A stretch of 64,000 nucleotides of DNA from Mesodorylaimus sp. YZB2_4 (lineage: Eukaryota > Nematoda > Enoplea > Dorylaimida > Dorylaimidae). The notes under the pieces were generated by a model that was given only the letters and a program-made list of their open reading frames with translations, was not told where the DNA came from and searched no databases. Shown piece after piece: positions 1-41,331 of the stretch. The stretch is from NCBI GenBank assembly GCA_030248295.1, contig JASANH010000304.1, positions 173,381 to 237,380 of the forward strand, written 5' to 3'. Every line of letters begins with the position of its first letter. Position 1 is the stretch's first letter. Position numbers and translations under genes: made by a program.

Positions 1-3000
1 TTTTCATTTCCTCAGTCAATTGTCGAGTTCGATCAGCCACTGTGGCCTCCAAATTTCCAGCGTACTTTTCCATCATTTTTAAGACGTGGTCCATAAGATT
101 CACAGTTCTAAATGAAAATGAACACCTTGGATAGTTCTGTCATGCACAGTGTGTGCTGCACAGCGAAAGTTGGCCAGGTGGTCCAGAACTCCTGGTAACA
201 GCTACAAAGAGACCAGCTTCACGCACCAATATCTGAGGGATGGCAAAAGCAAAGCAAAGAATACATTATATTCGAAAGTTTAAATTTAAAAGTGGCGGGA
301 AATTTGCATTTCCTTACAGCGCTCAGGATTCCCAAGTGAGAAACCCTCAAGGCTGTGGGTCTCTGAACTCGTTCCAGACCGAAAAAGGGGTAATGACGCT
401 AGCCCGATCTTTTCAGCAGACCTTGCGAGGATGAAAACGTGATTTATGAAGTTTAAAGTTCTATGGGTACACCGAAGAGTCGTCCAAGGAGCTTCCAGAT
501 CAACCTACCTTCCGCGAGTCATTTGACGAATCAGAGATTTGATTTGCTTGAAATCAGGGCGTAGATCAGGATCCTCCTTCCAGCAATCGTGCATGACTTG
601 AATCATGGCCGGGTCCGCATCCTGCTCGTTTCCTGTGTTCACATTTGGACGGAACGGCGGGCTTTCAGATTTTGAGACTCGTGCGATGATTTCTGGAATA
701 AAGTGTGGGGATGAAAACACAGAGAGTATTTCGAGTACTTGAAAAGCTTAATTTGAATTGGCGGCGCCGCCTTGGTGCCTGAACGTCAGAGAACCAACGC
801 GCAAGGCGCGAGGGTGTTTAAAACAGACTATAAGATGATTATGCTGGGGGAAAGAGGGCAGGGCGCACATGCGGAGGCTGAGATCTGACAAAAGGGCATA
901 CTGAAGCGCCTCACCAAGTTCTGGGCGGCTACTTGTTGTTGGCCTACAGTGTAAAAAGTACGATGGATGCAGCTTCACGTTGATGATCAGGCTGCTGCGG
1001 CAATACTGTGGTCTGATCAGATATGCCTTGCCTCAGCATGTTGTCGATCATTCCATTCCCTGGTAGCGCGTGGTGGCTAGCAATATAGGGTGAGCCACGC
1101 AATCGTCCATACACTTGTTCCATGCTGCGTCATTGAGACATCTCACTCGGCAAACGGCGAAGCACAAGGAAGCCTGAGAGAGTATGGCGGACATGAATAT
1201 GGCTGGCATTCTCAATTCGGAATGCATCTGTGGTCCGTGATGAATTCAAACTGGCCTGAGAGATAGAATGGTAGATAGCGTTGACTTTGGGACACTCCCA
1301 CCGACACTCCCAAGTCTTGATGTTGGTGGGTCTTTGCAGTACGCTTGAGCGCGTTTGTGACGCTTGCAGGAGGCGCATTGTGTAGGTGACATTACAACCA
1401 GCCCTGACCATAGTATCCATGTAGTGTCATGCTTTACGCACAGTAAGCCCAAGAGAGAATGGAAAAATATCCAATCAGCAGAAAATCAGACATTAGCAAT
1501 TGAGAAAGGACTACCTGGCTTGAAAGCGCAATGCTACCTAAGAGAAAACAGGCACGTCTCGCAGCGAAGGGTGTGATTATCAAATTTTCTGTACCCTGAC
1601 AAAGAAGGTCCGCATGGATATGTGAAGCTTTCCCCCCCGGTTTCTCGTCATTAGCTTCTACAGCCTGAAGCACTGAATCGCGAGTTACACGGACATTATG
1701 TGAACATATTGCACCCGGCACACGAGGCAGGCCCAAGGGCACCGCTTATGCCACTGAAAAAAAGGACTAACGCCGCAACTCACCTTCTGGAGTAACCGCT
1801 TCGCTGGCAAATGGGCGATCACGCATCAGAATTTCTTGCACGATCACAGCAAAACTGTACACGTCGCCTTTTACGGTACCCGCCAATGGCGGATCTTGCA
1901 TGCGAAGCAATTCGGGCGCAGTCCACAATTTGTCTAAATTCGTAACCTGATGACCTTTATAACCTGTCTTAAAAACCTTCATCAGCTACCTTTAGCCTCC
2001 TTCAATGGTTGTCGCATCTTATGCAATCCATAATCGGTCACTTTCAGCACCCATCGATTATCGACCACGCAATTGCTAGATCGCAATCGTCCGTGAGATT
2101 TAATCCCGCTCTCGATCAAATGCTCCATACCCTGCGTCAGCAAATAGTCCATCCCCTGGTGGTGTGTTGAATGAAAAGATTCTGAATTCAGGTGTGAACA
2201 CAAAGCGTGAGAATCCGGGGCACATGGAGCGATTATCGACAGAGCAGTGACAGGGATAGAGTACAATTGTTATGTGCAGGCACGTAGGCATATCTTACCC
2301 CCACAAGATCTTTGATGAGAGAATATTTGAAGAACCAATCCAATTTCACGTTTTCGTTGTGGATGACATCCTAAACAAGAGAACATTATGCCGAGTCTGC
2401 CTGACCACCCGATCAAAGCATAGCCCACCAGCCCGCCCAACCGCCTTATCACTAACTTACGTCCAAGCTGCCTTTGCTACAATATTTCCACAACGAGACT
2501 GGGTGAGGGGCGTCGATGCACAGACCTAAGAACGTGTTGATATTCTCGTGGGTAATATCACGCATCTGGAAAGAAAATTATGTAAAAATGACTTCAAAAA
2601 CCAAAAAAAGCAACTCACCATTTTCATGTGGACGTGGTCAGATTCGCTGCTGAGGACGGCACTCGTTTGATGTATCTTGGCCCAGACCAGGACGCTGCGG
2701 AAATGTGCCACGTTCTTGTCCCCTTTGGCGATAGCTTCAGCCGTTTCGTCCGACGCATTCGTGCTGATTGTGCGAAGGGAACCTAAGCTTTTACTGCGGC
2801 GACTTTTGTCATTCAGCCACACGATTTCTCGATAACTGATTTTCCACAACATTTTGGCCATCTCGTTGACGACAAGACGACGACGCACGTAGTACACGAT
2901 GCCAGTCACGAACAGACTCAGCATGATTGCAGTACAAACAACACCGATTATAATCCAGTGCACGTCTGAAAAGAAAAAGCAATTTGTAAAATTCGACCAC

Positions 3001-6000
3001 TGTCAAGGCAACTTAAATTTCAGTATTTGTCGCTGTGTTAAAGGAACTGTTGAAGGTTGATGCTCCTTGTGCGCAGGCACTTTTCTGAGGAGATGGCTGT
3101 TTGGCATACTGTAGGTTATTCGACTACTTCTATGATAGGGTGAGGAATGCAAAGCTAGGCCAGCTTCTGCACGTCCAGGTACCGAGACTATACAAGGATA
3201 TAAGATAGGCTGAACAGGTCACCAAGTTCTGTTTCTTAGAAAAGCATGGTGTAGGTCTCGATGCGAAAATTCATCCCATAAAGCATGTGAAAACTAAATT
3301 GTCGTATGGGCATATGCTTTAAAAGAACGTGGGTAAAGCTATTTTAGCAATGCAGTAGTATTGGTCAGAAAAATTGGGAAGGACAATATTGCCTTTAGAG
3401 CGTACTGGAAACTAAATACGAGCAAGCACGTGGATGGACTTACCAGAAGAATACACAACCGATTGCGATATAAAGCATTGTACACTAGGAAAAGAGTTTC
3501 AAACTTTGCTAACGTTGAACGCTATTGCAAACTTTGTTACAATAGATTGAGTGTCAAAACGGAGGAGGATGCGTTTCATGTATTTGTCGCTTGTTCTAGA
3601 TTAGACGGTTTCTGGCAAAAGATTGAGGCATTTCTGAGGCAGCTTGACTCACGCATAAGAGTGGAAAGCGAGAATAGAATTTTTAGTGTTCTGGGAGATT
3701 GGAACAGATACTACAGCTCTGGCAAACCTTGTGGTGCAATCTGCGCAACAAATCATTTGTTTCGCACCCGCAGACTTTAAGAATGACGACATAAAAAAAG
3801 GACATATGGTCTCTGCTACTATCGCGACGGAGCGCGATGGATTTCAAGGCTCACATTACAGCCCAGGAGAAGCATGGTCGATTTGTGACTTAACGATGTG
3901 ATTCTTTCCTTTTTATGCTTAGCTCGCTTTCCTGTGGCTCAGTTTCTTCGTTCTGTCTCCGACCAGAGTGGTCGCCTGCTTATCTTTGTCCGTAAAAGAC
4001 AGTGTAACGAAGCTGTGATATATTCAGTCTCTCTCCTCTAGCCGACCTGAGCAGTCGGTTCTCTCGTCGCTCTCTTCAACTACGCTTCCACAACGCCGCT
4101 CTCGCTACAGCTACTGAGGCGGCTTCGGTTCCTGGTAAAACGAGCTGAATGTATTCTCAGACCGCATCAGTATCGAGAAACTTTTGTAAAATCTGGTTTC
4201 CGAAACATTGTTGCAAATATGTGCTAATTAATGCTAGTTTTCGTTACGCAATTTTTTAGTTTGTCACGTTTTGTGGCTTCTTGTCAGTAGTAAACGAAGG
4301 GTATATAAAAGGAGCTGCTGTCCACAGCATTCCTAGCGGTAAAGATCGACACACTCCATATTTGGGAGACCCCGCTAGTGGATGTTTTAGCAGCAGGCGC
4401 AGACGCAGACTCGCCTTGCTTCGGTCTCTCATATCTCTTTCCCTCCATCCCCCAGGTGCGCTGGATGCTGCTCATTCTTCCCAGAATTTGGGAAAAATCG
4501 ATTTTCGAGTAGGAGCGATTTTGCAAATAAACTGAACGTTTGCAAACTGATTAAGAAATACAAGAGGCAGAAATAACCAAAAACTCCAGTCCTGTGTCAT
4601 CAGACACATCTCTAAAATTTGAGTTTCCCGCCAAATATAGAAGTGTTGCACTTACAGCTCCTGCCGGCCACTCTGCACTTCTCGCCCATGTAACCACATT
4701 CGGGCACGTCTTTGGGTATGACACCACCTCGGGTTTCCCACAACACGTGTTCCGGCACAAGCAAATTCACTGTCTGAATCAAGAAGTCGATGTGTGAGGA
4801 TGACGTACGTTACATCACCAATGACTTACTTGACCGTCAGCCTTGAACATTTGTGCTTGAGCCACTGGAATTAGTTTCATATCATTGTTGAATATACGGA
4901 CGACAAAACTAGGCTCACGCCCGGCAACGTCATCGATGACCACGTGACCAGAGTAGCCTGAAAACGACCACCAGTAAGTCTAGGCAAAGGTTCTCAACGT
5001 GAGCAGTCTTCACGTACCCATGAACTGAGTGTTCTTTGTACTATTCATGATCCATCGACCGTCTTTGATCGTGCCGCCTTGCCGATAGGTGCGGTTCAGT
5101 GCCAACCCGTATAAATAAACAGCATCGTGTAGGAATGGGCTGTAGAGAGCACCCTATATGAAAAGAAAGCAAGCTGCTTCCAGGTCATCCTGTCTAGCCG
5201 AGTTTGCCAGTTTTTGGTTGATAAGTGACCATTTTGACCTCAGTAACTTGCGCCAGGATACCCGCAGCATACAAGCAGCGTGAAAGTTTTATGTAGATAA
5301 GTTATCTGAGGTTTGTCAGCTTCAGCTTTTGTAACACGTGATCAGAGCCGGCAGTGTGCCCATCAAATGGCTCAAGTGACACTCCAGAATGCTTCACCAG
5401 TCTTATACTACTGTAGAGGTCTGACGATGCGACTGCTGCTCTGCTCTTACCGCGGCACCACCTACGCACAAACGATTCGTCTATCGGGGAGTCTGGTGTT
5501 AAGATTCAGGAGGGCTGTAGGTGGTGGGCGCGTGTTACGAGTACGTCTGTCGTAAGATGGTGTGCGCATCACAAGCGCAGAAACTCCATTCCTATGGACA
5601 ACTGTTCAGAAAAACTCATCATCGTCAGGTAAATCAGATTCAGAGAAAGTGACTGATATTAGTTTTGACAGGCTGCGTAACGGTCGACCAGGCAGCACAA
5701 AATGTTCAGCTTACGTATTGCTCATCTGGTTGATCACTGTCGTAGAAAAAGGGCCACTCCTTGACTCGTCGGATAACCTCTTTCTTGAAATAATGCAGTT
5801 CCTCGTTGCTCGCTAACTGCATTTCGATCTAAAAAAGCGTTTTCCAGTTTAGCGACGACAATTAATGGGTTCAGTTCTCAGTCGGGAACGTAGCTTCTGA
5901 TTGTGAGTTAAAAACCAAACGCAAATCTCCATTCTACGCTGTTGGGGAAAATGTTGGGTCGACGAAGCACATGTTGAGGCGTTCTACTGTCATACCATCA

Positions 6001-8728
6001 GTCGAGTACACTGTTTGCCGTGTCATATACTGTAGATAAACTTCACGCCCCAGGGTGGGTCAGGGAAGACAAGTAAGAACTATCAACCTTGAAGAACAGG
6101 CATGCCCGGCTGCACTTACGAACATAGCAGGGCGAAATCCATCTTTGGCCTCTTGATTCCGTCCATCGACGTTAGTATTTGATTCATAGTCGACCCACAG
6201 TTCGCTGCGGTTGTTATCACGGACATAGTCCGGCATGATCCACACGTAGTCCTTGCTTGCAAAACCTCGTTGAGCTGCTCGAAGCATAAAACGACGCATA
6301 TCGTGTTCGTGCTCGATGCACAGTACCACAACTAAAATATGGATCAACTTTACTGGGGATCAGAGAAAAAGATTGCGCTGTGTGCATCACTGCAGAGGCT
6401 GCGGCTGCACAGTGCCTGGGAAGTGGACAGCTGTATAATTTGCACTAATGCATAGGTGCCAGATTTTCCGAGCCTACATGATATGGCCCTGCAGGATGCG
6501 TCATAGAGCGTTAAATATCCATCTAGTGTGCAAAAAGATGAGCTACAGTATGAATATTGTCAAACTACAGTTTGCACAAGGAAGGCTAAGGTACAGTATG
6601 CTTAAGGATGGCTGAGGTACAGTATGCACAAATATGAGCTACAGTATGAATATTGTCACACTACAGTATGCACAAGCTTGAGGTACGACATGCGCACGGA
6701 TGAGCGCCAGTGATATATACCATACCAATTAGAGATGAGTATTACCAAACTAGAGTATGCTAAAAGTCGATCTACAGTATGTACAATGACACGCTACAGT
6801 ATGAGCATGGTCAAGCGACAGTATGCACAAGACTGAGCTAATGTATCCTAGAATGCGAAGCGATGCCCATCACCCACAGCCACCCGCAGTCATTGCCGCA
6901 CGCCCTTGCGCTGTATATTGACACCTATGGCGCTCATCATCAGGTAAGTGCCGAATCCTTATCATCCAGCACCAGGACTCACTTCTAGCTGCCCCTTCCA
7001 GCACATCCAAAAATCGTTCAATCTCCTCGTTAGTGATAGTTGCTCGATCTATGGCCGCATTGTGCACGTTGACGATCTCAGTGCTCGGCAAAATCTTCCT
7101 TAGCCCCTCAGCAATGGAGTAGCATCGCCTAGTGGTGCCGTCATCAGTGTACACCATGGCTATGCGACGCCAATTGAAATAGAGCAGAACTTCCTTGATC
7201 GCTCGACCCATGCGGATAGCCGAGCCAATTGTTCTGGCCATGGTCGGGAACCGTTTCGGGTTGGCTAGATCTGTGCTCGTGGCCGCCCAACTGATCATGG
7301 GTATGTCGTAGTATTTTGCCATTATGGCCACAACCAGAGCCGCTAAATCGAAACAGCAAATAAATTCTTAACATATTTTCTGCTCGATAGTTCTGCAGGG
7401 TTCCATTCTGCTAGCCACAAGAAAAATCAAACTTTCACCCAATCTTCTTCCTTATCCAGATTACTGTACCAGCAGAAGAAAACCATAAAGTTTGACTCAC
7501 AGTTAGCACAGGGTGGGCCGATAATGACGTCTATTCTATCCAGCATTTTGATGAAATGAGCAGCAGCGTACTCCTCGACACAGTCATCCATATACCAGAC
7601 AAAACTAGAAAACAGCACCCAATTATCAGGTGTCTACTCACTATTCGAACATGGTGGTCCTATAACCACATCGACTTTTTTATTGCCCAATAAATCGATT
7701 GCAAAACTGACTGCTAAGAGTTCATCGCACTCGTCATATTGCCATACAAAGCTAGAATCGCATGATGGCATGTACAACAGTGAGCTTGGCACGTTGCGCA
7801 GCGCCCGAGGGTTGGGGAGCGTCATTTGGCTCTGCACGCTTTCTCATACGCTCACCTCCAATTTGCTCCGGACAATAAATTTTCTCTTTTTATCCGATCC
7901 AGAGCCACGCCAATCGCACCAGCTGATGCGCCAAAACCCATTTTCGAAGCGAGATGTTTCTCTTTGTTGCTGGGCATGAGGATACCCACGCGGACGTTAT
8001 AGTTGGCTGGCATGACGACATGGTCTGAAATGAGAGAAGGTGACATGCCCGGTCCGAAAACGGGCCCTTCCATGAAGCTCATTTCCTCTTATCCATTATC
8101 TCTAAAATTTCTTCTCAGTTTCCTGCTTTGCAACAGCTGTTAGTCATAATCAGCGGGTCCGCAGGGCCACATTGTGTACTCGGGGCACTTCTTCGACTGC
8201 ATTTGGTGTCCACCTAAGGGCGTAATTTAGCGCAATGTGCAGTCAGCATTGGGTAGGATCTTTCAGCCCCCCCCCTCGCTAGCGCCCAGCTAAGCGACGG
8301 TTCTTGCTTCAAAAAACCAAAGCGCGGCCTAGGATAGACTGCGTAAAATGTAGTTTCAGATAGGATTTCTATAAAATCTGTTGTAGTCATTTGCTGTAGC
8401 TGCTGGTTTCTACATTTCTTGTAAGCCTGGCACAACTGTTGCCTGAATCTACTAGATTGCACTACATTATACCTAGCTTCAGAGACAGGGCATAGAGCTC
8501 TCTAAAAATTCCCTCCCCAATCCTTTCCTTACCAGAATTTGCTGGCGTATTATCGATTTTTGTCGCTTCCGTTTTTCGGGTCAATCCCACTTCGTCGGCG
8601 CTCCTTTCCACGCGGTGGTGCTCAGCCAGCAGAGTGCTCCAATCGCCATCGTGACCGATCGTACGCCCGTTTCCGAAGCGTATGCAAGTCAATAAGGAAC
8701 ACAACCATATAAATCTTATGCAAACCAT
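1..8728 (-). CDS. Receptor-type (natriuretic-peptide-receptor-like) guanylate cyclase, 3' truncated by window edge
   Basis: Single-pass receptor expected to make cGMP from GTP on ligand binding. Exons (- strand, transcript order): 8533-8728, 7856-8024, then 7642-7751 or 7501-7604, 6983-7342, 6120-6331, 5715-5828, 5018-5153, 4830-4957, 4656-4773, 2619-2965, 2461-2565, 2299-2370, 1990-2131 (or to 2155), 1784-1963, 509-692, <1-107. All junction phases agree, giving about 900 codons. Exon 1 carries a signal peptide ([15 protein letters not shown]). Exons 2-9 form the ANF-receptor ligand domain, ending in [15 protein letters not shown]. Exon 10 holds the membrane helix ([20 protein letters not shown]). 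Exons 10-15 are the kinase-homology domain ([55 protein letters not shown]). It lacks the HRD aspartate, as is usual for this inactive domain. Exon 16 begins the dimerisation coil ([20 protein letters not shown]). The cyclase domain lies outside the window. One junction (1964-1989) is odd; see findings. Confidence 0.93.
1964..1989 (-). other. 26-nt GT-AG interval: putative micro-intron or frameshift
   Basis: Between AAAG and GTTATAAAGG in the kinase-homology domain the frame changes by two. Removing the 26 nt from GTAGCTGATG to TTAAGACAG restores a family-like reading ([14 protein letters not shown]). Other introns in the window are 50 nt or longer, so splicing here is uncertain. Confidence 0.5.
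3070..3780 (+). mobile_element. Degraded LINE 3' end (RT-associated zinc-knuckle region)
   Basis: Lies on + inside the long intron (2966-4655) of the minus-strand cyclase gene. Broken frames read [19 protein letters not shown] and VPRLYKDIR followed by stops. An open stretch at 3361-3780 has the C-x2-C ... H-x4-C pattern of the zinc-binding tail of LINE reverse transcriptases ([29 protein letters not shown]). Several in-frame stops upstream mark it as a dead, 5'-truncated insertion. It is not related closely enough to the intact LINE at 43-46 kb to be called the same family. Confidence 0.65.
6535..6855. repeat. Degenerate minisatellite in guanylate cyclase intron
   Basis: About ten imperfect copies of a short motif around CTACAGTATGCACAAG, irregularly spaced by roughly 20-35 bp, in the intron between exons 4 and 5 of the cyclase gene. 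No coding content. Confidence 0.7.
7501..7604 (-). other. Alternative exon 3b, a diverged tandem duplicate of exon 3a
   Basis: 104 nt, bounded by TTCTAG and GTGAGT. It encodes [18 protein letters not shown] to [11 protein letters not shown]. Entry phase (2) and exit phase (1) are the same as exon 3a, so either exon restores the frame into exon 4. Both together (214 nt) or neither breaks it. Only 37 nt separate the two exons. Confidence 0.83.
7642..7751 (-). other. Alternative exon 3a of the guanylate cyclase ligand domain
   Basis: 110 nt, bounded by TTCTAG and GTGAGT. It encodes [17 protein letters not shown] to [11 protein letters not shown]. It enters in phase 2 from exon 2 and leaves in phase 1 to exon 4, where it gives ...[16 protein letters not shown]. 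It is a paralogue of the next exon downstream. Confidence 0.85.
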
Positions 8729-10616: not shown

Positions 10617-11654
10617 ATGGATGTTGCTGGCTGCTGGCGATACAGCATGATTCCAGTCGTTCCAAATTTACTTTTATTTTCAGTATCATCCACCACAGCG
10701 ACATGTTAAGTACTGTGGAAAAATTACCATTTTCTGGTCTGATGGTGCTTTGCTTCAGGTCAAATATGTTACACAATTCAATGTGCGTTCCGTCAAAGTT
10801 GCACGAAAACTTTCAGTGGAGTCGCAAATGGAGGCCGCTGTTTCTTCTTGGCTTCTGTTCCCAATACTGGAAAATATGAATCGACCAATTACAGCACATC
10901 CAACTGCAATGATGCATTCGATATTTGTCGACGAGAAGGAAACAAGTTCGCCCAAATTCATCCAAGCATCGAATAGACATCGATCAAAACTGCTTAGAAC
11001 GAATTTTAGAGTACGAATTTTAGAGATGATGCTTCAGTACGAGGTAATATTGCTAAGAATTACATTTTAGAGCATACTTCAACTGCCAACCGGATGGATT
11101 TGGATCGCTCTAAGGCGAGACTCACCAGCCACCAGCGCCACTCGCCTTTTCGACCTGAATCACATGAGATGGTACCAGGGCGATGGCATCCCTCATCCAA
11201 AGCTGGCCAGCCGAAGCACATTCTATCGACTGCACATCAATGATCCATATGGGCAGAATAGCATCGCTCGATGCATGGATTTATACACGACCCAAGCGCA
11301 TTTCTCAGATTACTATTGCGACATGAGCACACTACTGATACATACTGTGCCATGTGTACAGTAAGACAGGTCAGACTGCAGCTCGCTGATCCTTGAAGTA
11401 ACCCTTCTTTTGGTGAGGCGCAGGATTTCGATCTTGTTCCCAACAAATGCATGAATGAAACCATAATCGACTCAACAACATACATTCAAAGTATCGATGA
11501 ATGCGCCACCTGGTGTTCGCGAAACATTTGGTGTCGCAGTTTCAACTTGTATCCCCAAAGCAAAAGTTGTGATTTCTTTTTCTGGCATTACAGCGATACC
11601 GCTAATATTGCTAATTCTTATCCAGATTGTTACCATTTTTTGTACAAGCCGTGA
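10617..11654 (+). pseudogene. Decayed C-type lectin + PAN gene (copy A)
   Basis: A sister of the gene at 14302-15316 with the same four-exon plan: 10617-10704 (signal peptide, MDVAGCWRYSMIPVV), 10759 onward (lectin, first half, GVANGGRCFFLASVPNTGKY), 11071-11360 (lectin, second half, WYQGDGIPHPKLAS), and about 11415-11654 (PAN, CATWCSRNIWCRSFN). Four lesions are visible against copy B. There is a TAG at 10974-10976 where copy B has Trp. The exon-2 donor is lost. An ATAC duplication near 11337-11344 shifts the frame before the last lectin cysteine. The acceptor before the PAN exon has lost its CAG. The 5' flank (from about 10440) is also duplicated from the region before copy B. A full-length product cannot be made without unusual splicing. 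Confidence 0.82.
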
Positions 11655-14301: not shown

Positions 14302-15316
14302 ATGGATGTTGCTGGCTGCTGGCGACTCGGCTTAATTCTGGTCATTTCAAATTTAGTTTTTTTTTCGCAATTACTTAACAAAGCGACAGGTAACATATAT
14401 GAAAAAGTGATCATTTTTTGGTCTGATGGTGCTTTGCTCCAGGTCAAACATGTTACACAAGTCAAACTGTGTTCCAACAAAATTGCACAAAAATTTTTAA
14501 TGGAGTCGCAAATGGAGGCCGCTGTTTCTTTTTGGCTTCTGTTCCCAATACTAGAAAATATGGATCGACCAATTACAGCTTATCCAACTGGAATGATGCG
14601 TTCGATATCTGTCGACGACAAGGAGGCACGTTCGCCCAAATTCATACAAGCATCGAATGGACAATGATCAAAACTGCTTTCAAGGTACTAGCTTTAGGGA
14701 TAGTGCTACAGTAATTTTGGTAAGAGTCACGTTTCAGAATATACTACAGTCAAGCGGATCGATATGGATGGCTCTGAGGCGAGATTCACCAGCCACCACC
14801 GCCCCTCGCTTATTCGACTTGAACCATACAAGATGGTACCAGGGCGATGGCACCCCTCATCCAAAGCTGACCGGCCTGAACACGTATTACCGGCTGCGCA
14901 TTGATGACCCAAACGGACAGAACAACGTCGCTCGATGCATGAATTTATACTTGAGCCAAGGCTATTTTTCAGATTACTCTTGCGACAGTAGCACGTTTTT
15001 GATACTGTGCCATGTGTACAGTAAGACACGTCAGATTGCAGCTCATTGCTTCTTGAAGTAGCATTTCTTTTCAGGTGAAATGCAGGATTTTGATGTGGTT
15101 CCCAACAAGTGCTTGAACGAAACTTCAATCGATTCGATCACATACATCCAAAGCATGAACGAATGTGCCACCTGGTGTTCGCGAAACATTTGGTGTCGCA
15201 GTTTCAACTTGTATCCACAAAGCAAAAGTTGTGATTTCTTTCCGTGGCATCACAGCGATACCACCAATATCGCTAACGCTTATTCAGACTGCTACCATTA
15301 TTCGTATAGACCGTGA
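14302..15316 (+). CDS. Secreted C-type lectin-like + PAN/apple domain protein (copy B)
   Basis: Four exons, all phase-consistent: 14302-14389, 14443-14684, 14738-15020 and 15075-15316 (855 nt, 284 aa). Residues 1-29 form a signal peptide (MDVAGCWRLGLILVISNLVF). Residues about 30-205 form a C-type lectin-like fold (CYTSQTVFQQNC, NGGRCFFLASVP, WNDAFDICRRQGGTFAQIH, ARCMNLY, CDSSTFLILCHV). No EPN/QPD or WND calcium-sugar motif is evident, so the ligand is unpredictable. The last 80 residues form a PAN-like module (PNKCLNETSID, ECATWCSRNIWCRSFN, CDFFPWHHSD) ending ...YSYRP. PAN and lectin modules usually mediate protein or carbohydrate binding outside the cell. AATAAA at 15436-15441 is a plausible polyadenylation signal. 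The first intron is only 53 nt. The specific role is unknown. Confidence 0.85.
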
Positions 15317-23154: not shown

Positions 23155-23940
23155 CCACCCGGTGGCCGCCAGGCGCGCACACTTTTCGATTATATCCATT
23201 CCCAACTGATATGTGGGAGGCTACTGACCCAAATAAAATAAACAACAGCGGTCAGCGACTGCATTGACCACAATGAAAATTAGGTTTTTTGAAAGTATTC
23301 TGATCGTGAAATCAAAGCATAGCTGGTAATTCTGCCGGTTTTCTGTGATTTTCATCCTGACTTGTGAAACAAAGTATTTAACATACCTTTATTCTGAAAG
23401 CGGGTACTAACAATAAGTGGCACATACGGGAAAATTTTCAGTTGGGGTTTCGTTTTTGATTTTGTTATTCGTGCAAGCTCGAAAAAATTTGAGCTTTGAC
23501 TTCAGGCGGGAATATCTCAATAATGGTAAGACATAGGAATAGAGATAAGTCTAAGAAAGCATTCGATAGCTTATCATCTTGCGGTCATTTCGATATATTC
23601 TGGACCATTCCAGGACAAAGGGTTGCGAAAATATGGGCGATATCGTCCAACAACACGCTTTTATGTGAATTTCCATAGAGAACTGGTGAAAATCATTTTT
23701 GACCCTCGCGTCACCATACACTCATTGGGTACTTACTACTACGCACAAAAAAAATCACAGTGTCCAAATTTTCGCTTAGCGTGTTTATCGGTCAACCCAG
23801 ACAGAAATCCTGCCTTAACTTTTTACATTCAATCATAAAGTAATGCAAGGGAATTTTAAAAAAGGGGAAAGAAATCAAAGCAAATTCCTCTGGTATAAAA
23901 TCTGTAAAACAGTCACATTATCTATCATTTGCGTCGTAGT
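23155..23940. other. Spacer with a dispersed repeat segment
   Basis: About 23690-23805 (GGTACTTACTACTACGCAC... GTCAACCCAGACAGAAA) resembles 63335-63425. Otherwise nothing recognised. Confidence 0.4.
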
Positions 23941-26900
23941 TCACCAAGCTCTGTTCTCCAACAAAGGACAGCACATACACCAAATCCCGATCAAAACCAG
24001 GGCAACAACCGGATAGCGAAAGGCTTTCAAATTCATCGCAGCTGAAACTGGCATTTCTAGCCATTCGGATAATTTTGCAGTCACATCTTTCCGCGCTTGT
24101 GTTAATTCTGGTGGGTCGTTGGGCAGAGCCTCATGCATGTCGTAACAGTGTGATGTACCTGCAATGACAGACGATCCTGTAGACGAAACTAGTTTCAATT
24201 CAGAAATAAAGATCGTGTTTGACAGAACAAAAGCACTAAGTGGGAGTCGAACCCGTGAACTCGGATTTCCTTCAGTGCTCTTTTTTGTTGCCGTAATCGG
24301 GCATCTCATCGACACACAGGCTGGCAGAAAACGCATGCCTGAATTTCCTTCACTAATTCACATAAATATCCTTGAACAAGCCTTTTAAAGGTTTCTTACC
24401 TTCGATGTACCGCGATGGCGACTCCTTATCAAGGTCACGGTCATAAATTCCCAGCGGGTGCCACGGATCGATGGAACCATTCAGAAGGAAGACCCTGGTT
24501 GCCTATAACACAACTCCAGTACCAAACAGCAATTTCGCTAGTCTTGCCGTACATTTGGTGACTTGCCGCCATATTTTTGATTGGTCAGTACAACACTTCG
24601 AGTGACGTCGAGGGATGTGATTCCGAACGGTTGAATGCAGTACAGATTTTCCAAGTACCTAGGAATACCAGCGTAGGGGAACCCACCACTCACCACCCGC
24701 AAGCATGACCTGGCAAAGTCTCACTTTATGTCAACTGTCCCAAACCCGAATGGCTGATTGCTGCTGTCCATCGATTGATAATAGGCGAATTCAGCGCAAG
24801 TTTGCCACAGCCATTGACGGGCTGAAAAGCATAACTTCACTTCGAAGAGCCTCCCAGCTGAATTCGCCGAAAAGCAAGGGGGGGGGGGGGAATTTGAAGA
24901 AACTATAAAAAACTTGGCTGAGTGGGCAAAGTCTCACAACTGACTGCGAGTGGGTGTGTCTTGGCAAAACCCACACCCACAAATCCTAGACAGAAGATTG
25001 AAGTCAAATTTTAGGCTCACTTCCTCCAGCTACGCTCGCAGAACTCCAAGAATCTTGTTTTATGAACTCGATGACAGCCTTGTAGTCGACGTCGACACAG
25101 GGCTCTTGAGTCGACTTGGTCTGGTTGTACCACTGCGCATATTTTTCCAAGGGAGTGTTCACATCTGTCCGGGTCATTTGGCGGCAGTAAGAAGCCAGTT
25201 GCGATGACGATCCCTGAAGTCGAGCAAAGGTCCTATTACCTGGTTTGAAATTCGTTTTTTTGCGTTAAAAATACATACCACTCCGTTGTATTGCGTAGCC
25301 CCCATCCAAGGACTTGTAATCGCGTCGTAAAACATTTCGATCTGGTATGGATCGTCGAAGCTGATTTTACTTCCGCAAAGTCTAGCAAAGAAAGAAACAA
25401 GGTTTCACTGAATGTCATGGAAAAAAGCATACCCGAAGAAAGAATTTAATTTTTTGTCATTTCTAGCCGCAACTAAATCTTGAACCGCCTTGATCGCTGC
25501 GTTTACCGCATCGTAGCAATTTGGATCAAAATATTTTTGCGCATTTCCAACAGTCTCTACGTATTCTGAAAAAATGTAAGTTTCCCGCGCAGAATACTCA
25601 TTGAAACCGGAATGGCTTACCAATGAAATCCACTTCCGCTAAAACTGGTGCACTGCTTGCCACACCACCCACAGTGGAATTCGGGTACAGAGACCTGTAC
25701 CAGACGACTAGGTTGCCTGAAAATGTTACCAATCCACCAAATGAATGAGTCGACAGACTATATACAGTTTTCAATACTTGAAAATCTGACAGCTCATATC
25801 AAATATACTCGACTAGCTCTCGATCGCCTGGCTAGACTCTCGATAGCCATGGCGACTCTGCACTATTGGGCAGGATGTGTTTCCTACCTGAAACTTGTTC
25901 TATCCGTTCCTCTGTGTCTTTTTGCATGTCTTGTCACTTTCTATCTAACCCTAAGCTTAGGGCTCAGGCTTAGGCTTAGTCTGGCGCTCCCGTGTTTGCA
26001 GATTCGTCTAATTAAAGCATGCGTGCTTTCGTTAGCCGTGCCTTCTAAAGCGTGCGGGGATAGTGTAAACATCCTGCTCGTTAGTGCCGCGTGGCATGGC
26101 GCTATGGATTTCGCACAGGACAAGGAGAAGGCATGGCGTGCTATAAAGTGCTAGAGCCACGCACGCGGGAAATTCAAATGTTCAAGCTGGCTTACAGTTC
26201 ACTTCTGACAGGGTATTGCAAATTGCCCAAGGATTTTCATGCTTGTTTGTGTTTTAGGGCAGGAAAAGCCCTCCTCCCCCGGTTAATGGGGTATCCGCGT
26301 CAGCAGCAGCACAAAAGGTCGTGGAAAAAGTAAGATTTAACCCTATAAAAACTTTTTCTCAGTATACTGCTTTACCTGAGTATGATCCACCAAAAACAAC
26401 AACTTTTGCGTCTGGACGATTGAATTTGGTCTTCATGCCGCTTATAAATGCGTCCAAATCAGCCAGTGCTTGGAGACTGCTTAGATAACGTAAACTCTCA
26501 ATGCTGGCATCGCTTAACGAAACAAAACGCCTTCAAAGAGTGAGTTGAAGACATGAATTTCACACCTCACCTCGTCGGATGACTCTGTCCATAAAATCGA
26601 TGCTCCAATTGAAACATCAATGCGCCATATATCTTTGCATTCTGATACATTTGCCCATATTTGAGCCATCCCTCATCAATTTCGCCTTCACCACTGATCA
26701 GAACGAAAAATGGGCCTCCTTTTCTGTATTCATAATCATTGACTTGATAACGCTAAAGAAACCTGGGATGGTGATTTTGATGGGAAAACAGATCGGTCGA
26801 AGAATTTGTTTGATTTGAGTACTAATCTTGACAAAATGACTACTCAAAATATTGATAGCGTGACCTTACTTGTTCCCAGGTGGAGTTGACTGACGTGTTG

Positions 26901-27100
26901 AAATGGTCTAGTGGTTGCGTAAAATGGAAAAGGTCACCACTTGGCTCTAGATTCCGTTGAATATTAGCCATTGAAGGTGGAATTGAAGGAGGAACTAATC
27001 CACGACCATGATATCGACCAGCGAAAAATTTTTTACTGCCACAAAAATGGATAGTAAAAAATACAAAAAATATGACACTGACTAGACATTTATTGCACAT
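23941..27100 (-). CDS. S28-family serine peptidase (PRCP / thymus-specific serine protease-like), membrane-anchored
   Basis: Secretory-pathway prolyl-type carboxy/aminopeptidase. Eleven exons, phase-consistent (1599 nt, 532 aa): 26870-27100, 26571-26752, 26376-26512, 25621-25716, 25433-25565, 25279-25381, 25021-25213, 24725-24821, 24553-24658, 24400-24502 and 23941-24158. A signal peptide leads (MCNKCLVSVIFFVFFTIHF). Family blocks follow in order: QPLDHFN, GGPFFVLISGEGE, LEHRFYGQSHPT, the nucleophile motif GGSYSG, VGGVASSAPV, RQWLWQTCAEF, the Asp motif NGSIDPWHPLG and the His motif GTSHCYDMH. The catalytic Ser-Asp-His triad is therefore complete. After the catalytic domain the C-terminus has a hydrophobic stretch (YPVVALVLIGIWCMCC) suggesting a type I membrane anchor, whereas many S28 enzymes are soluble. 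Several introns are 50-66 nt. The protein should be active from sequence; the substrate is unknown. Confidence 0.93.
25940..26110. repeat. MULE-terminus-like sequence in S28 intron
   Basis: GTTAGCCGTG, GTGCGGGGATAG and CCTGCTCGTTAGTGCCGCG echo the right TIR of the MULE at 21853-21957 with insertions. It may be a diverged MITE remnant. A short TTAGGC-like run precedes it. Confidence 0.3.
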
Positions 27101-35600: not shown

Positions 35601-38600
35601 GTAATATGAGTTTTTTCGTATTCAAATTTCAAATTTCGTATTTTTATCCCAGCCGAATCCCCTCGAGAATGACAGATATAATGTTAAATTTGTCAATCTT
35701 CGATGTTTCACGCGCACATTGCACATATCCGCATTGAACCTGAGCATCACAGCCCGGTGTCATACTGTAACCGCTTTTAAAGAATTTGAAGGATGCATTG
35801 TTTTTTAGGCACTTAAATTTGTCATTCGAGATTACTTGAAACAAAAAGGACGAAGGAAATCTGACGTTCAACCAGAATTAGTTGTCGACTATGGGGCTGA
35901 CTATTCATTGTGGTCTCCAGCGGCAAGTTTAATGACGCAAAACACGAACGGAACTGGTGACTTGGACGTTATCGGTGTCGTGGGACCGTGGGCAAGTAGC
36001 GTCACTTTACAAGTGGCTAATTTACTCAGTCTTTTTCGAATGCCTCAAGTATGTTGACTTTTTACATGTTTGAGTGTGTTTTCGGTTACACAGTCTCAGG
36101 GGCGGTTTCAACAAGATGCCACTGGAATAATGCAGTCGTTGCGTCTACAAATGTGCTGAAGTACATCTACCCACTCACATTGGCAGTCTGAGGACATCAA
36201 GGATGCTTTCCTGGGCAGCATACGAAATTCTTGAAAAAACTGCACAGTGAAAAAGAAAAACGAAAAAAACTCGAGGATTGTCTGATCAGCATCCGAAAGC
36301 CCCAAGCCAGGTGGAAGAGTGGTCAAGGAAGCAAAAAAAGTTTCTAGCCATTAGGCTCTAAACTTTTCATCTTAGCAGGGTTCATTAAAAAGCGTGAAAA
36401 AAAATTTTTTCTTTGATTTTCCAGATTATCTAGTCAAAAATTTAAATTTTCCTCTCATAATTTTCACAATTGAACCATAAATTGCATCTTTTCGCGGTTT
36501 TCCATGATTTTTACTCAAAAATTCTCATTTTTTCAGATTTTGCTGACACTTCTCGTATTCCCTGGTTTTTTCAGGTTTTTCTGAACTTCAATGAACCCTT
36601 CTTATTGTTAGCGTTTATTGTCTGTTCCACCGAGAAAGCAGGTTGCGCCCTCAAAGTCTGTGAAACACAGCAGCGGCAGAAGCAATTTTTATTGCAATAT
36701 AAACAACAATGCAGGCAAAACTTATTTGCAGGCAGAAGACATTTTTCAATACAATTTTTAGCAGATTAAAAAAATTTTCTTGTAGATTAGCTACGCGGCC
36801 ACTACAACTTCGCTGAACAATCGCCGCACTTATCCATATTTCTTGAGAACTGTGCCATCAGACAGCAATCAAGCCAGAGTTCTTGTGGAAATCTTGCGGT
36901 ATTTCTTTAAAAAAACCTGCTACACCGTACAGCTTCTGAAATCCACTTCCACGAATCTTTGTTTCAGAGCGTGGAATTGGACTTATATTATCGGTGCATA
37001 CGAAGACACAAATTATGGTACTCAAGGATTTCATGAATTTGAGAAAGCCGTAGAAAACTCGGATATCTGCTTTGCTGATCGTTGGAAAATCAAAAACGAT
37101 AATATCGACACGACTACACAAGAAATTAGGACAAAATTACGAAAGTTAGCTGACGGAGCGAAAGAAGCGAGAGGTAAGACAAGCTGCGAGACTACCCCCA
37201 CCGTTTTATGGGGATGCGCGCACTCCTAGTCGCCAACTGCGTACAAAGTGGTCGAGGGTGGTAAAAGATTTGTGATTTTACTGTGAACTGCATCTTTCAG
37301 CATTTGTTCTTTACATGAATTCGAACCTCTTCGAAATGATTATTCGAGCTGCTATTGAAGAAAAATTGGAAAATCGATTCGTTTGGATTGGAGCAGACGC
37401 TTGGGGAAATCAGTTGATCCCTAACGTAAGGGAAATGCCCAGTATCTATTGTAGTACTGTACAAGTAGAGCAGGTGGTGAAGATAGTTTATGAAGCTTGA
37501 GAGGATCACCCATGACAGCTCTGACTGAGGAGATAAAGATATAAAAAATGTCATAGTCTGTGCGGAAAAAATATAAAATTTTGAGACCAGAATTCAAGTT
37601 AAAGTATTTTAGAAATCATTCCTGCTAAATTAATGGCTTTTTATTCTCTAATTTCACTTTGCAATTTCCAGCTGGTTTTTTATGCAGTCCTTTCTCCCTC
37701 ATAAGCTATTCTACTTTCACTAATAATTTTTTTCCACCCATAAATAGGGCTAATTCGATTTTTAAACTCAATAATCTTTGGTTTAAAATTTGACAGAAAC
37801 TAACTGACTGACAATGAGAGAGCTCCTTGTTATTATGTAAAACTAACAATACTGAAAGAATTTTTTAACTTTTTAGGATTTGAGCTTAGCAGTCGAAGGT
37901 GCCATCGTCAGTTTACCAGTTCAAAAAAAATTTACCACTTTCGCTAATTATTTTTACCCCCTAAAACCCAGCACAAACGAACGAAATATTTGGTTCCACG
38001 AATTTTGGCGGGCATTATTCAATTGCATAAACAAAAACGACGAGTCCGAATGCTACAACAAAGGGAGGATTAGAAAAAAAATAAGAAATTCCAAATTCGG
38101 ATCATTGCATAATGTTCGGGATGCTGTTTTTGCATTTTCTACAGCTCTGCAAAGAATGCATGAAAAAGCGTGCCCTGGCGGACGACGAGGAATATGCTAC
38201 AGGATGAACAGATGGCTAAGCGATCCTGATCGACAGATTTTGTTGGAGTATTTGAAAAACGCGACATTCCCAGGTAATGTTATTTGCAGTTCCAGCAATT
38301 TCATTGCTGTTATTTTAGGAAGCCCACTGTAAGATGAAGTAATGTTTTTTCCGAATCAGGAGTCCCGCAAGTGCGGGTGAATTCTTGTCATGCGTCCTCG
38401 TCGTTCCACGCGAGGAGGGAATTTTCCCGCAGACTAGGGGGCTCGGGAGTTGACTCTATCTTGTCATCGAAAAGGGCAATCAGAGATGCATGGGTACGGG
38501 CTCGCGGAGTCCGCAGGGTAACTATACCCAGCCTGTGGCCTGTGAGGGGACCCGGATTCGAGGGCCTTCCACCGCATAAGGCCTCATGGAGGAGGTAGGG

Positions 38601-41331
38601 TGAGCCACCCAAAAGGAGGCGTGCGAGGTACAGAGAGAACTTCACCAAGTTCTGAGAGAGCCAGAATTGAACCCAGGCCGCCGAGTTTCACCGCGACACA
38701 ATCAAGGCGGCATAAGTTGTGGGTGGATTAACCATAGGTCTCATTCTGTATTCCAGGGGCAGCATAAGGTATCATTCCACTGAACTGTAGTGCGCAAAAT
38801 ACGTATATTTTTCAGATGTGCCTTTTTTCGTTTTCTTGTTTTTTTCGTGGTTCGCTGTCCCTCAATCAGTGATTGCTGACTAGAAACCCGTGTAACCCGT
38901 GTTTTTGATTATTGGTTATATAATTCAGCACAAATTTTTATTGTGAATACAGTTGCTATCTACGTACTCTGACACTACTTAAATATAAAAAAATTTACAG
39001 CCTGGGTTTTAAAAAATTAGACCTCTGACAGTCACTCTCACACAAATTTGACTGTGTTTTAGGAATTGATGGTGCGGAAATATCATTTGCAGAAGGTTAC
39101 GATGGCTTGCCAAATTATACAATTTTAAATTATCAAAAAATTCCATTGAAAACTATGAACGAAAGTGAATTTGAGTGGGTCAATATTGGAGCTGTCAGAG
39201 GTGAATTAGGTAAGTTGTGAATCCTCTATCTCTGATTCTGAGTGCGTGAGTGAAGGCCTGCTTGTTGCTCGTCAAAGCTATCAATTTCACAAAAAAAACA
39301 TTGATCTTGCTAATTGCACTTGCATCTCCGATCGATATCCATATCTATCCCTGATCGATATCCATACATACCCGGATGGATATCCATATCTATCTCCGAT
39401 CGATATTTATGCCTATCCTCGATCGATATCCGTATCTGTCTCCGACCGATATCTGCACGTATCTCTGATCGATATCTGCACGTAGCTCTGATCGATATCT
39501 GCACCTATCTCCGACTGATATTTGTGCCTATCACCGATCCATCGATATCAGGGCATATATGATATGTGCGGGGGATATCATGGCATATACAGTATATCCA
39601 GACATATCTGCAGATATGTGTAGATATCAATGGATATCGATATCTTTGATATATGAATAGCTGTTTCTCGAATGCTGAGATTCGATAAACTGTAATTTGC
39701 TGTACTTTTTAGATTCTGGTCAAGACCAATTTCATTTCGACTTTAGTCAAAGAAGTAATCGATATATAAAAGCTCGTTTTAAACTCGACACCACTCCTGA
39801 TTTCCCTTCATCGATTTGTGGTCGCCCGTGTCCACCTGGCTCGATTCGTCGCCACTATCAGAACAGATGTTGTTGGACATGCGAACAGTGCGCATTTCCC
39901 ACATATCGCGTCAATGAATCTCAATGCGATTTATGCCCAGTCGTCAACCCTGATTCACCCTCGCCCACATATTATAAACCAGCAGATTCGCTGGATTATT
40001 GCATCAAGATCGAACCGATGTATGTGCATATTTTCAACAATGCAGTCGTGGCTGTTGTAACAGTCGCATCGACAGTCGGTTTAGTTATAACTTTTATGAC
40101 CTTAACTTTATTCCTTTATTACGCTCCTACACCCATCATTAAGGCCAGTGGACGGGAATTATCCATCGCTCTATTATCTGGTATCGCGCTTTGTTATTCC
40201 ACTGTTTTTATCATAGCTTCGACTCCGAACATGTACACTTGCGCATTGTCCAGATTTTTCTACAGTACAGGTTATACTACTTGTTATGGATCGATATTCA
40301 TAAAAACTAATCGAATCGCCAGAATATTTCGACCAGGCAACATTCATACATCATTTCGTAGAGCCTCCTTTCGACCAGGTGCCAAAAGGGCGTCTGTTGG
40401 GGCGGGAAGTTTAAAACGTATGCGATATATTAGTCCCCTATCGCAAGTATTATTCGTCCTTGGATTAGTCGGATTTCAAACAATTATAAATATTATATGG
40501 TTAATTTTAAGACCACCAATACCAGTGTCGAAATTACAAATCGATTATGAAAATTCAAAATTCAATTTATATAAATTTTGTCGCGCATTCGAAAATGAGG
40601 ATATGGTTATCGCTTTATTATTTCCAATTACTTTACTTTTATTCGCTTCATTTTATGCGTTCAAAACAAGAAAATGTCCTGGAAAATTTAACGAAATGAA
40701 ATATATCGCTGTAACCACATATACCACATGTATTGTGTGGTTAGCATTTATTCCTGTTTTTTTCGCAACAGAACAATTGAATTTACGAATTTACGCCATG
40801 TGCGCCTCGCTATGCATAAATGCTACGGTAACATTATTTTGTATGTTTGCACCAAAATTATTCGTTGCCGTTTATCGACCACAGAAAAATACGAAAGATG
40901 CAGTAATGGGGAAAAAAGATCGCGCCATTTCGGCTCCATCATCTCCGAGTCCATATAATGGAGCACAGTTTAGTGATCTCAACAGTTCGTTTCAGTTGAA
41001 TTGTCACTCGACGAGGTCGTCTATGGTCAGCGCACTGGGCTTCGATGCTGCGTTGTCAGAGGGCACGGGATTAGAAAATGATTCATTTTATAATCGACGA
41101 CCATTATTGCAAATTAGTCAATCCATGAAGCGAATTAGCGAGGAAAGTCACCGTCCCAGTGCCATCGACCATCTAACTGTACCCAAAACCAGATTCAAGT
41201 CGGAACACGGCGAGGCTAGTGCGAGACAAAGCATGGTCTCTATTGCAGCTAGGCCTGTTTTCTACAATGAAAATTGTGAGTGCATTGGTAGCGCGCATAA
41301 AACGAAGAAAAACAGAAGGAAGTCGTTTTGA
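32654..41331 (+). CDS. Class C GPCR, metabotropic glutamate receptor type
   Basis: Eight exons, phase-consistent (3171 nt, 1056 aa): 32654-32977, 35809-36048, 36786-36898, 36968-37173, 37301-37425, 37877-38273, 39063-39209 and 39713-41331. A signal peptide leads (MIRLEIGLMIIYFTTKIYA). The Venus-flytrap ligand domain follows (GVVGPWASSVTLQVANLL, MPQISYAATTTSL, RTVPSDSNQARVL, FVWIGADAWG). Then come the cysteine-rich linker (GRPCPPGSIRRHYQNRCCW, WTCEQCAFPTY) and the seven-helix domain (LFLYYAPTPIIKASGRELS, CALSRFFYSTGYTTCYGSI, KTNRIARIF, RYISPLSQV, CASLCINATVTLFCMF). The cytoplasmic tail is Ser-rich. Residues that bind the amino-acid backbone are kept, but those for the glutamate side chain are not (see findings). 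AATAAA at 41606-41611 is a likely polyadenylation signal. Confidence 0.94.
38360..38725 (-). mobile_element. GC-rich tRNA-like SINE in receptor intron
   Basis: A GC-rich island in an otherwise AT-rich intron. On - it has a B-box-like CTGGGTTCAATTCTGG (about 38670) after GGTGAAACTCGGCGG, followed by a GC-rich body. This suggests a tRNA-derived SINE of a family different from the one at 15481. Confidence 0.5.
39330..39545. repeat. 23-bp minisatellite, about nine units
   Basis: Tandem units of the form GATCGATATCYRYRYCTATCT (22-23 bp) in the last intron of the class C receptor gene, grading into GATATC/ATATATC-rich sequence to about 39650. Nearly every unit carries a GATCGATATC core. Confidence 0.88.

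Follow-up and report, generated by a model that had tools for sequence, protein, structure and literature searches.

Mutually exclusive exons retune the outside domain of several receptors, including FGFR2 (IIIb/IIIc), C. elegans egl-15 (5A/5B), insect Rdl and the AMPA receptors (flip/flop). These all belong to receptor families and folds other than the receptor guanylate cyclases (rGCs). Among the rGCs, C. elegans GCY-12 is likewise one gene giving two protein forms. GCY-12.a and GCY-12.b are described as keeping all predicted extracellular domains and differing by added C-terminal sequence (PMC12324235), while at the locus described here it is the ectodomain core that would be swapped. Nematodes enlarge the rGC family by many genes, with 27 rGCs in C. 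elegans (PMC5225109). For mutually exclusive exons in general, a human survey treats a donor-to-branch distance below 50 as possible steric interference, finds this in 57 clusters (9%), and also counts frame-shifting lengths of human exons as a control type (PMC5740500).

In an rGC gene of Mesodorylaimus sp. we found two adjacent homologous exons, 3a and 3b, with matching phases, as expected of this class. We put at roughly 0.8 the probability that they are a mutually exclusive pair whose choice alters one segment of the sensing domain. The exons resemble the human cases in being adjacent and homologous, in having lengths not divisible by three and in a candidate donor-to-branch distance below 50; they differ in that the human cases are read-supported whereas 3a and 3b are predicted from sequence, and 'guanyl' does not occur in the main text of that survey (PMC5740500). 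The first-pass annotation was aware of no described exons of this kind at this position, and we too found no precedent in the open-access literature. Queries of open-access full text for mutually exclusive exons in receptor guanylyl cyclases or guanylyl cyclases gave none on topic as judged from titles and the start of abstracts, and those for spliced natriuretic receptors and for alternative splicing of a tardigrade guanylate cyclase gave no match. By term search, 'splic', 'isoform' and 'exon' are absent from the C. elegans rGC review (PMC5225109), 'splic' and 'exon' from a survey of the guanylate cyclase family (PMC1435932), and 'splic' from PMC8416980. An alternative exon at the place of 3a/3b was thus not found for receptor guanylyl cyclases in the literature searched. 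A well-formed exclusive pair at this rGC position is new to us; the type of arrangement is known from other receptors. If the exons are used as predicted, the sensing domain of a receptor cyclase would be switched by splicing and not by adding genes.

The window, that is the whole stretch of DNA analyzed, is 64,000 nt long. The gene model runs on the minus strand from a start codon at 8728 to 509, with 15 exons and 855 stop-free codons. Exon borders in this gene were placed by eye, and the acceptor of exon 13 is uncertain. Its parts are as follows.

8533-8728, minus strand: exon 1, with the start codon and a signal-peptide-like N terminus (both by eye); open frame in phase with exon 2.
7856-8024, minus strand: exon 2, 169 nt, common to both isoforms; donor AG/GTGAGC.
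7642-7751, minus strand: exon 3a, 110 nt; adds 45 bits to the PF01094 match.
7605-7641, minus strand: gap between 3a and 3b, 37 nt, GT...AG, with a single branch-like CTGAT.
7501-7604, minus strand: exon 3b, 104 nt; adds 34 bits to the PF01094 match.
6983-7342, minus strand: exon 4, 360 nt; entered in frame from 3a or 3b.
4656-6331, minus strand: exons 5 to 9 (6331-6120, 5828-5715, 5153-5018, 4957-4830 and 4773-4656), the remaining ligand-binding ectodomain.
2619-2965, minus strand: exon 10, transmembrane segment and juxtamembrane region; hydrophobic stretch recognized by eye.
509-2565, minus strand: exons 11 to 15 with their introns, kinase-homology domain matching the intracellular part of NPR-A.
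1-107, minus strand: start of exon 16, which we take to be the linker helix of a receptor cyclase from its likeness to the rGC linker; open frame continuing past the window edge.

The gene had been called a receptor guanylate cyclase, and the profile and structure comparisons bear this out. Against PF01094 (ANF_receptor) the ectodomain scored 186.5 bits as isoform A (with 3a) and 175.5 bits as isoform B (with 3b). NPR-C was the top solved-structure match for both isoforms (E=2.5e-27 for A, 2.6e-26 for B), with NPR-A next (E=2.9e-25 and 5e-24). After one membrane segment, the kinase-homology region matched the intracellular part of NPR-A (E=9.4e-12) and PF07714 (25.7 bits, cut-off 23.1). The gene resembles NPR-A/GC-A, the nematode GCYs and, for the ectodomain, NPR-C in its ANF_receptor ectodomain, cysteine pair and GPxC motif, and the first two also in the single membrane segment and the kinase-homology domain. 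The name receptor guanylate cyclase is given on the strength of this predicted architecture, from the ANF_receptor ectodomain through the membrane segment to the kinase-homology domain; the gene leaves the window at position 1, and the cyclase catalytic domain would lie beyond it.

At exon 13 two in-frame acceptors lie 24 nt apart on the minus strand, giving exon starts at 2155 (before GMDYLLTQ) and 2131 (before GMEHL). Of the two starts, the one at GMEHL looks more like a typical kinase-homology sequence, which leaves the exon border in doubt. An imperfect 26-nt tandem repeat of 2.5 copies (6566-6631) lies within intron 4, and by eye motifs resembling it seem to extend past these positions.

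The lengths of 110 and 104 nt, the 37-nt gap, the GT/AG sites and the phases of the exon pair were all as first annotated. Identity of the splice sites held for the phases and for the shared donor GTGAGT, but the acceptors are merely similar (GATTCTAG versus TTTTCTAG). The last exon base before the donor is A in 3a and T in 3b, which makes the junction residue Thr in isoform A and Ser in isoform B. Either exon alone keeps the frame, with exon 2-3a-exon 4 and exon 2-3b-exon 4 both open. Including both or skipping both shifts the frame into stops, as had been proposed and as is also expected of mutually exclusive exons: the 3a-3b double product meets a stop 24 codons past the 3a-3b junction, and joining exon 2 directly to exon 4 is frame-shifted. 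Retention of the gap brings a stop within its first 8 nt.

The first-pass annotation had also described the gap as shorter than any well-supported intron here, and our measurements agree (37 nt against at least 50 nt in 21 other placed introns from three genes). These comprise the 14 introns of the receptor gene in its A form, each at least 53 nt, and seven introns of at least 50 nt from two neighboring genes, chosen by eye as a subset of the introns of those genes. A scan for the branch motif YTNAY 10-45 nt before the acceptor, a weak guide that gave no motif in three of 17 rows, located CTGAT in the gap, separated by 15 nt from the donor of 3a and by 21 nt from the acceptor of 3b. Elsewhere in the gene, branch candidates lie 17 and 42 nt from the donor in intron 7-8, and 34 and 35 nt from it in introns 8-9 and 10-11. 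In the short introns of this gene the candidates lie as little as 34-42 nt from the donor, so the human limit of 50 is not simply transferable. The short gap and the 15-nt distance nevertheless fit a steric exclusion of 3a-3b joining, which we regard as plausible. Splicing would connect exon 2 to one of the two exons and that exon to exon 4; as the 3a donor and the 3b branch site and acceptor would occupy one 37-nt stretch, U1 bound to the former would clash with U2 bound to the latter. The out-of-frame message from double inclusion or skipping would form a second barrier. Of the two controls, that of the reading frame applies to 3a/3b, and that of distance applies if about 15 nt is too short in Mesodorylaimus sp. 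too.

The two exons are clear duplicates, as claimed, with 18 of 36 aligned residues identical. Their alignment scores 95, while none of 5,000 shuffles reached this score (at most 23). With 3b as the tblastn query against the whole window, 3a was found at E=1.8e-9 and the next match was at 0.068. With 3a as the query, 3b was absent from the whole-window matches, also in a repeat run. The same query did match 3b in 7450-7640 alone (38.9 bits, 37 residues), so we attribute the omission to the heuristics of BLAST when the subject is one long sequence. In tblastn of the whole window no third copy of the exon was seen. An ectodomain match at 36786-36905, considered as a possible paralogous cyclase gene, was rejected because it sits in a class C G-protein-coupled receptor gene (PF00003). 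That gene lies at about 35800-41330 on the plus strand and has ANF_receptor and 7tm_3 matches, with NCD3G under the cut-off. In wider searches, exon 2 gave 22 pattern matches in viral_contigs and isoform A gave six in genome_contigs, none of them confirmed, which is expected for an animal gene in such collections.

Both exons contribute to the domain. In a test on the N-terminal half of the ANF_receptor domain, PF01094 scored 127.6 bits with 3a, 116.7 bits with 3b and 82.6 bits with the exon removed; a control with one hand-scrambled segment scored 83.4 bits. Each exon thus carries conserved profile positions. Differences between 3a and 3b at codon positions one, two and three number 14, 9 and 25 of 36 (second versus third position, Fisher p=3e-4). 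Only five of the 18 identical residues use the same codon, and the synonymous distance is saturated and not computable. With differences concentrated at third positions, both copies look long constrained, and the substitution pattern looks like the mark of a lasting constraint on the protein sequence of 3a and 3b.

This pattern bears on the other explanations of the pair. One exon might be functional and its neighbor a leftover of an ancient tandem duplication that has ceased to enter useful message. 3b does fit the Pfam models worse than 3a, falling 11 bits short on PF01094 and taking Peripla_BP_6 from 33 bits (with 3a) to 20.3 bits, under the cut-off. We simulated neutral drift of one copy with substitutions only, without insertions or deletions and with assumed base frequencies, in 3,000 runs for each value of K (neutral substitutions per site). 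After a recent loss of constraint the drifting copy would pass, looking as intact as observed in 40% of runs at K=0.2 and 14% at K=0.35, but this falls to 2.3% at K=0.5 and to none at K=0.95. Drift of one copy could therefore mimic the observed pattern only if it was short. Splice sites, phase, frame and cysteine pair are also intact in both copies despite the synonymous saturation, and we hold a relict exon to be unlikely. It is more improbable still that the pair is a switch of productivity, in which double inclusion or skipping is deliberate, the out-of-frame message is degraded and only one isoform is a functional receptor. The stops that follow double inclusion, skipping and gap retention would serve such a switch. 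A second exon kept for this purpose, however, has no need of a protein-like substitution pattern or a fit to the domain profile, and double inclusion would mean splicing out an intron of 37 nt, below the length of each of the 21 others.

If introns in this species can be very short, the gap might be a genuine intron and 3a and 3b independent cassette exons, in agreement with its GT...AG ends and branch-like motif. The 21 other introns placed in three genes, all of at least 50 nt, speak against this, as does the out-of-frame joint product, and we would be very surprised if it were correct. Exclusive use of 3a or 3b, with a plausible steric block and a predicted effect on function, is the reading we infer from the sequence.

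On that reading, exon choice would keep the cysteine pair and the GPPC turn and change the helix between them. In a MAFFT alignment with NPR-A the cassette starts with FVW just before the first cysteine and ends after GPPC. FVW, the two cysteines and DV-IGPPC are constant in both versions and the stretch between differs; by analogy with NPR-A this stretch is probably a helix. The cysteines are spaced by 26 in 3a, as in NPR-A, and by 24 in 3b. In NPR-A, Cys60 and Cys86 form a disulphide that belongs to the chloride site, close to the dimerization interface (PMC4049422), and the chloride-binding motif of rGCs is S(x)nGPxC (PMC5225109). The conserved GPPC motif reported earlier is present in both exons, each with an upstream partner cysteine, so that 3a and 3b both carry the GPxC and upstream-cysteine part of S(x)nGPxC; the cassette cysteines would by the same analogy form a disulphide. 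The serine of the motif, which we take to be Ser53 in NPR-A, aligns with Asp in both isoforms, although a gap close by leaves some doubt about this column. With Asp in place of the serine, a classical chloride site is doubtful in either isoform.

Opposite NPR-A Asp71 (counted from Cys60), 3a carries Asp and 3b Lys; opposite Trp74, 3a carries Gly, while 3b has a gap from a two-residue cut. In its local match, 3b is shifted by two residues relative to the MAFFT alignment, making the Asp71-Lys equivalence tentative, and the mapping of residues onto Asp71 and Trp74 is likewise tentative. Both NPR-A residues are presumably located in the head-to-head dimer interface. In a mutagenesis study of NPR-A, changing Asp71 or Trp74 to Arg reportedly raises resting cyclase activity; neither 'W74R' nor 'D71R' was found by name in our literature search. 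Reviews state that mutagenesis favors the head-to-head dimer.

The first-pass annotation had proposed two ectodomain versions with different binding surfaces. Two versions are indeed predicted; the difference is better described as a different helix, probably near the dimer contact, as judged by the NPR-A alignment. From this place, which would be beside the chloride site, the swap would most likely affect the response to ligand, the resting activity or the pairing of dimers. The cassette would then offer a natural pair of states in which to test how the geometry of the ectodomain determines guanylate cyclase activity, with the structural core kept and one helix near the dimer contact changed. 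A speculative extension, which we consider doubtful, is that exon choice acts as a dimer code: A and B would differ in a partner-facing helix and thus in resting activity or in selective pairing (A with B). If so, one gene would give receptors with separate set points or separate partners.

We also examined RNA folding around the pair. The stretch spanning exons 2 to 4 has a somewhat better fold than most shuffles (four of 100 do as well), while the folding of two longer pieces around the gap was equalled by 60 and 35 of 200 shuffles. A hairpin in the gap (-8.6 kcal/mol) was dropped as a candidate regulatory structure, being equalled by 19 of 200 shuffles; of 3,000 37-mers drawn at random from the window, 265 fold as well as the gap. 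The gap and the 3b-4 intron have an 8-base repeat in common that might pair with the gap; this too was rejected, as a shared stretch of at least 8 occurred in 288 of 3,000 random places. Since neither the folds nor the repeat is clearly beyond chance, we make no claim of docking or selector sequences.

The remainder of the window contains other genes. One of them, on the minus strand at about 23940-27000, encodes a serine carboxypeptidase S28 and has five measured introns of 50-65 nt. In the parts scanned, PAN_1 matches were found at 11424-11612 and 15086-15283 on the plus strand and at 47119-46940 and 42170-42009 on the minus strand. These four matches, on both strands, suggest that PAN-domain genes form a local family here. 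On the minus strand, 46093-43886 has endonuclease and reverse transcriptase matches and looks like a non-LTR retroelement.
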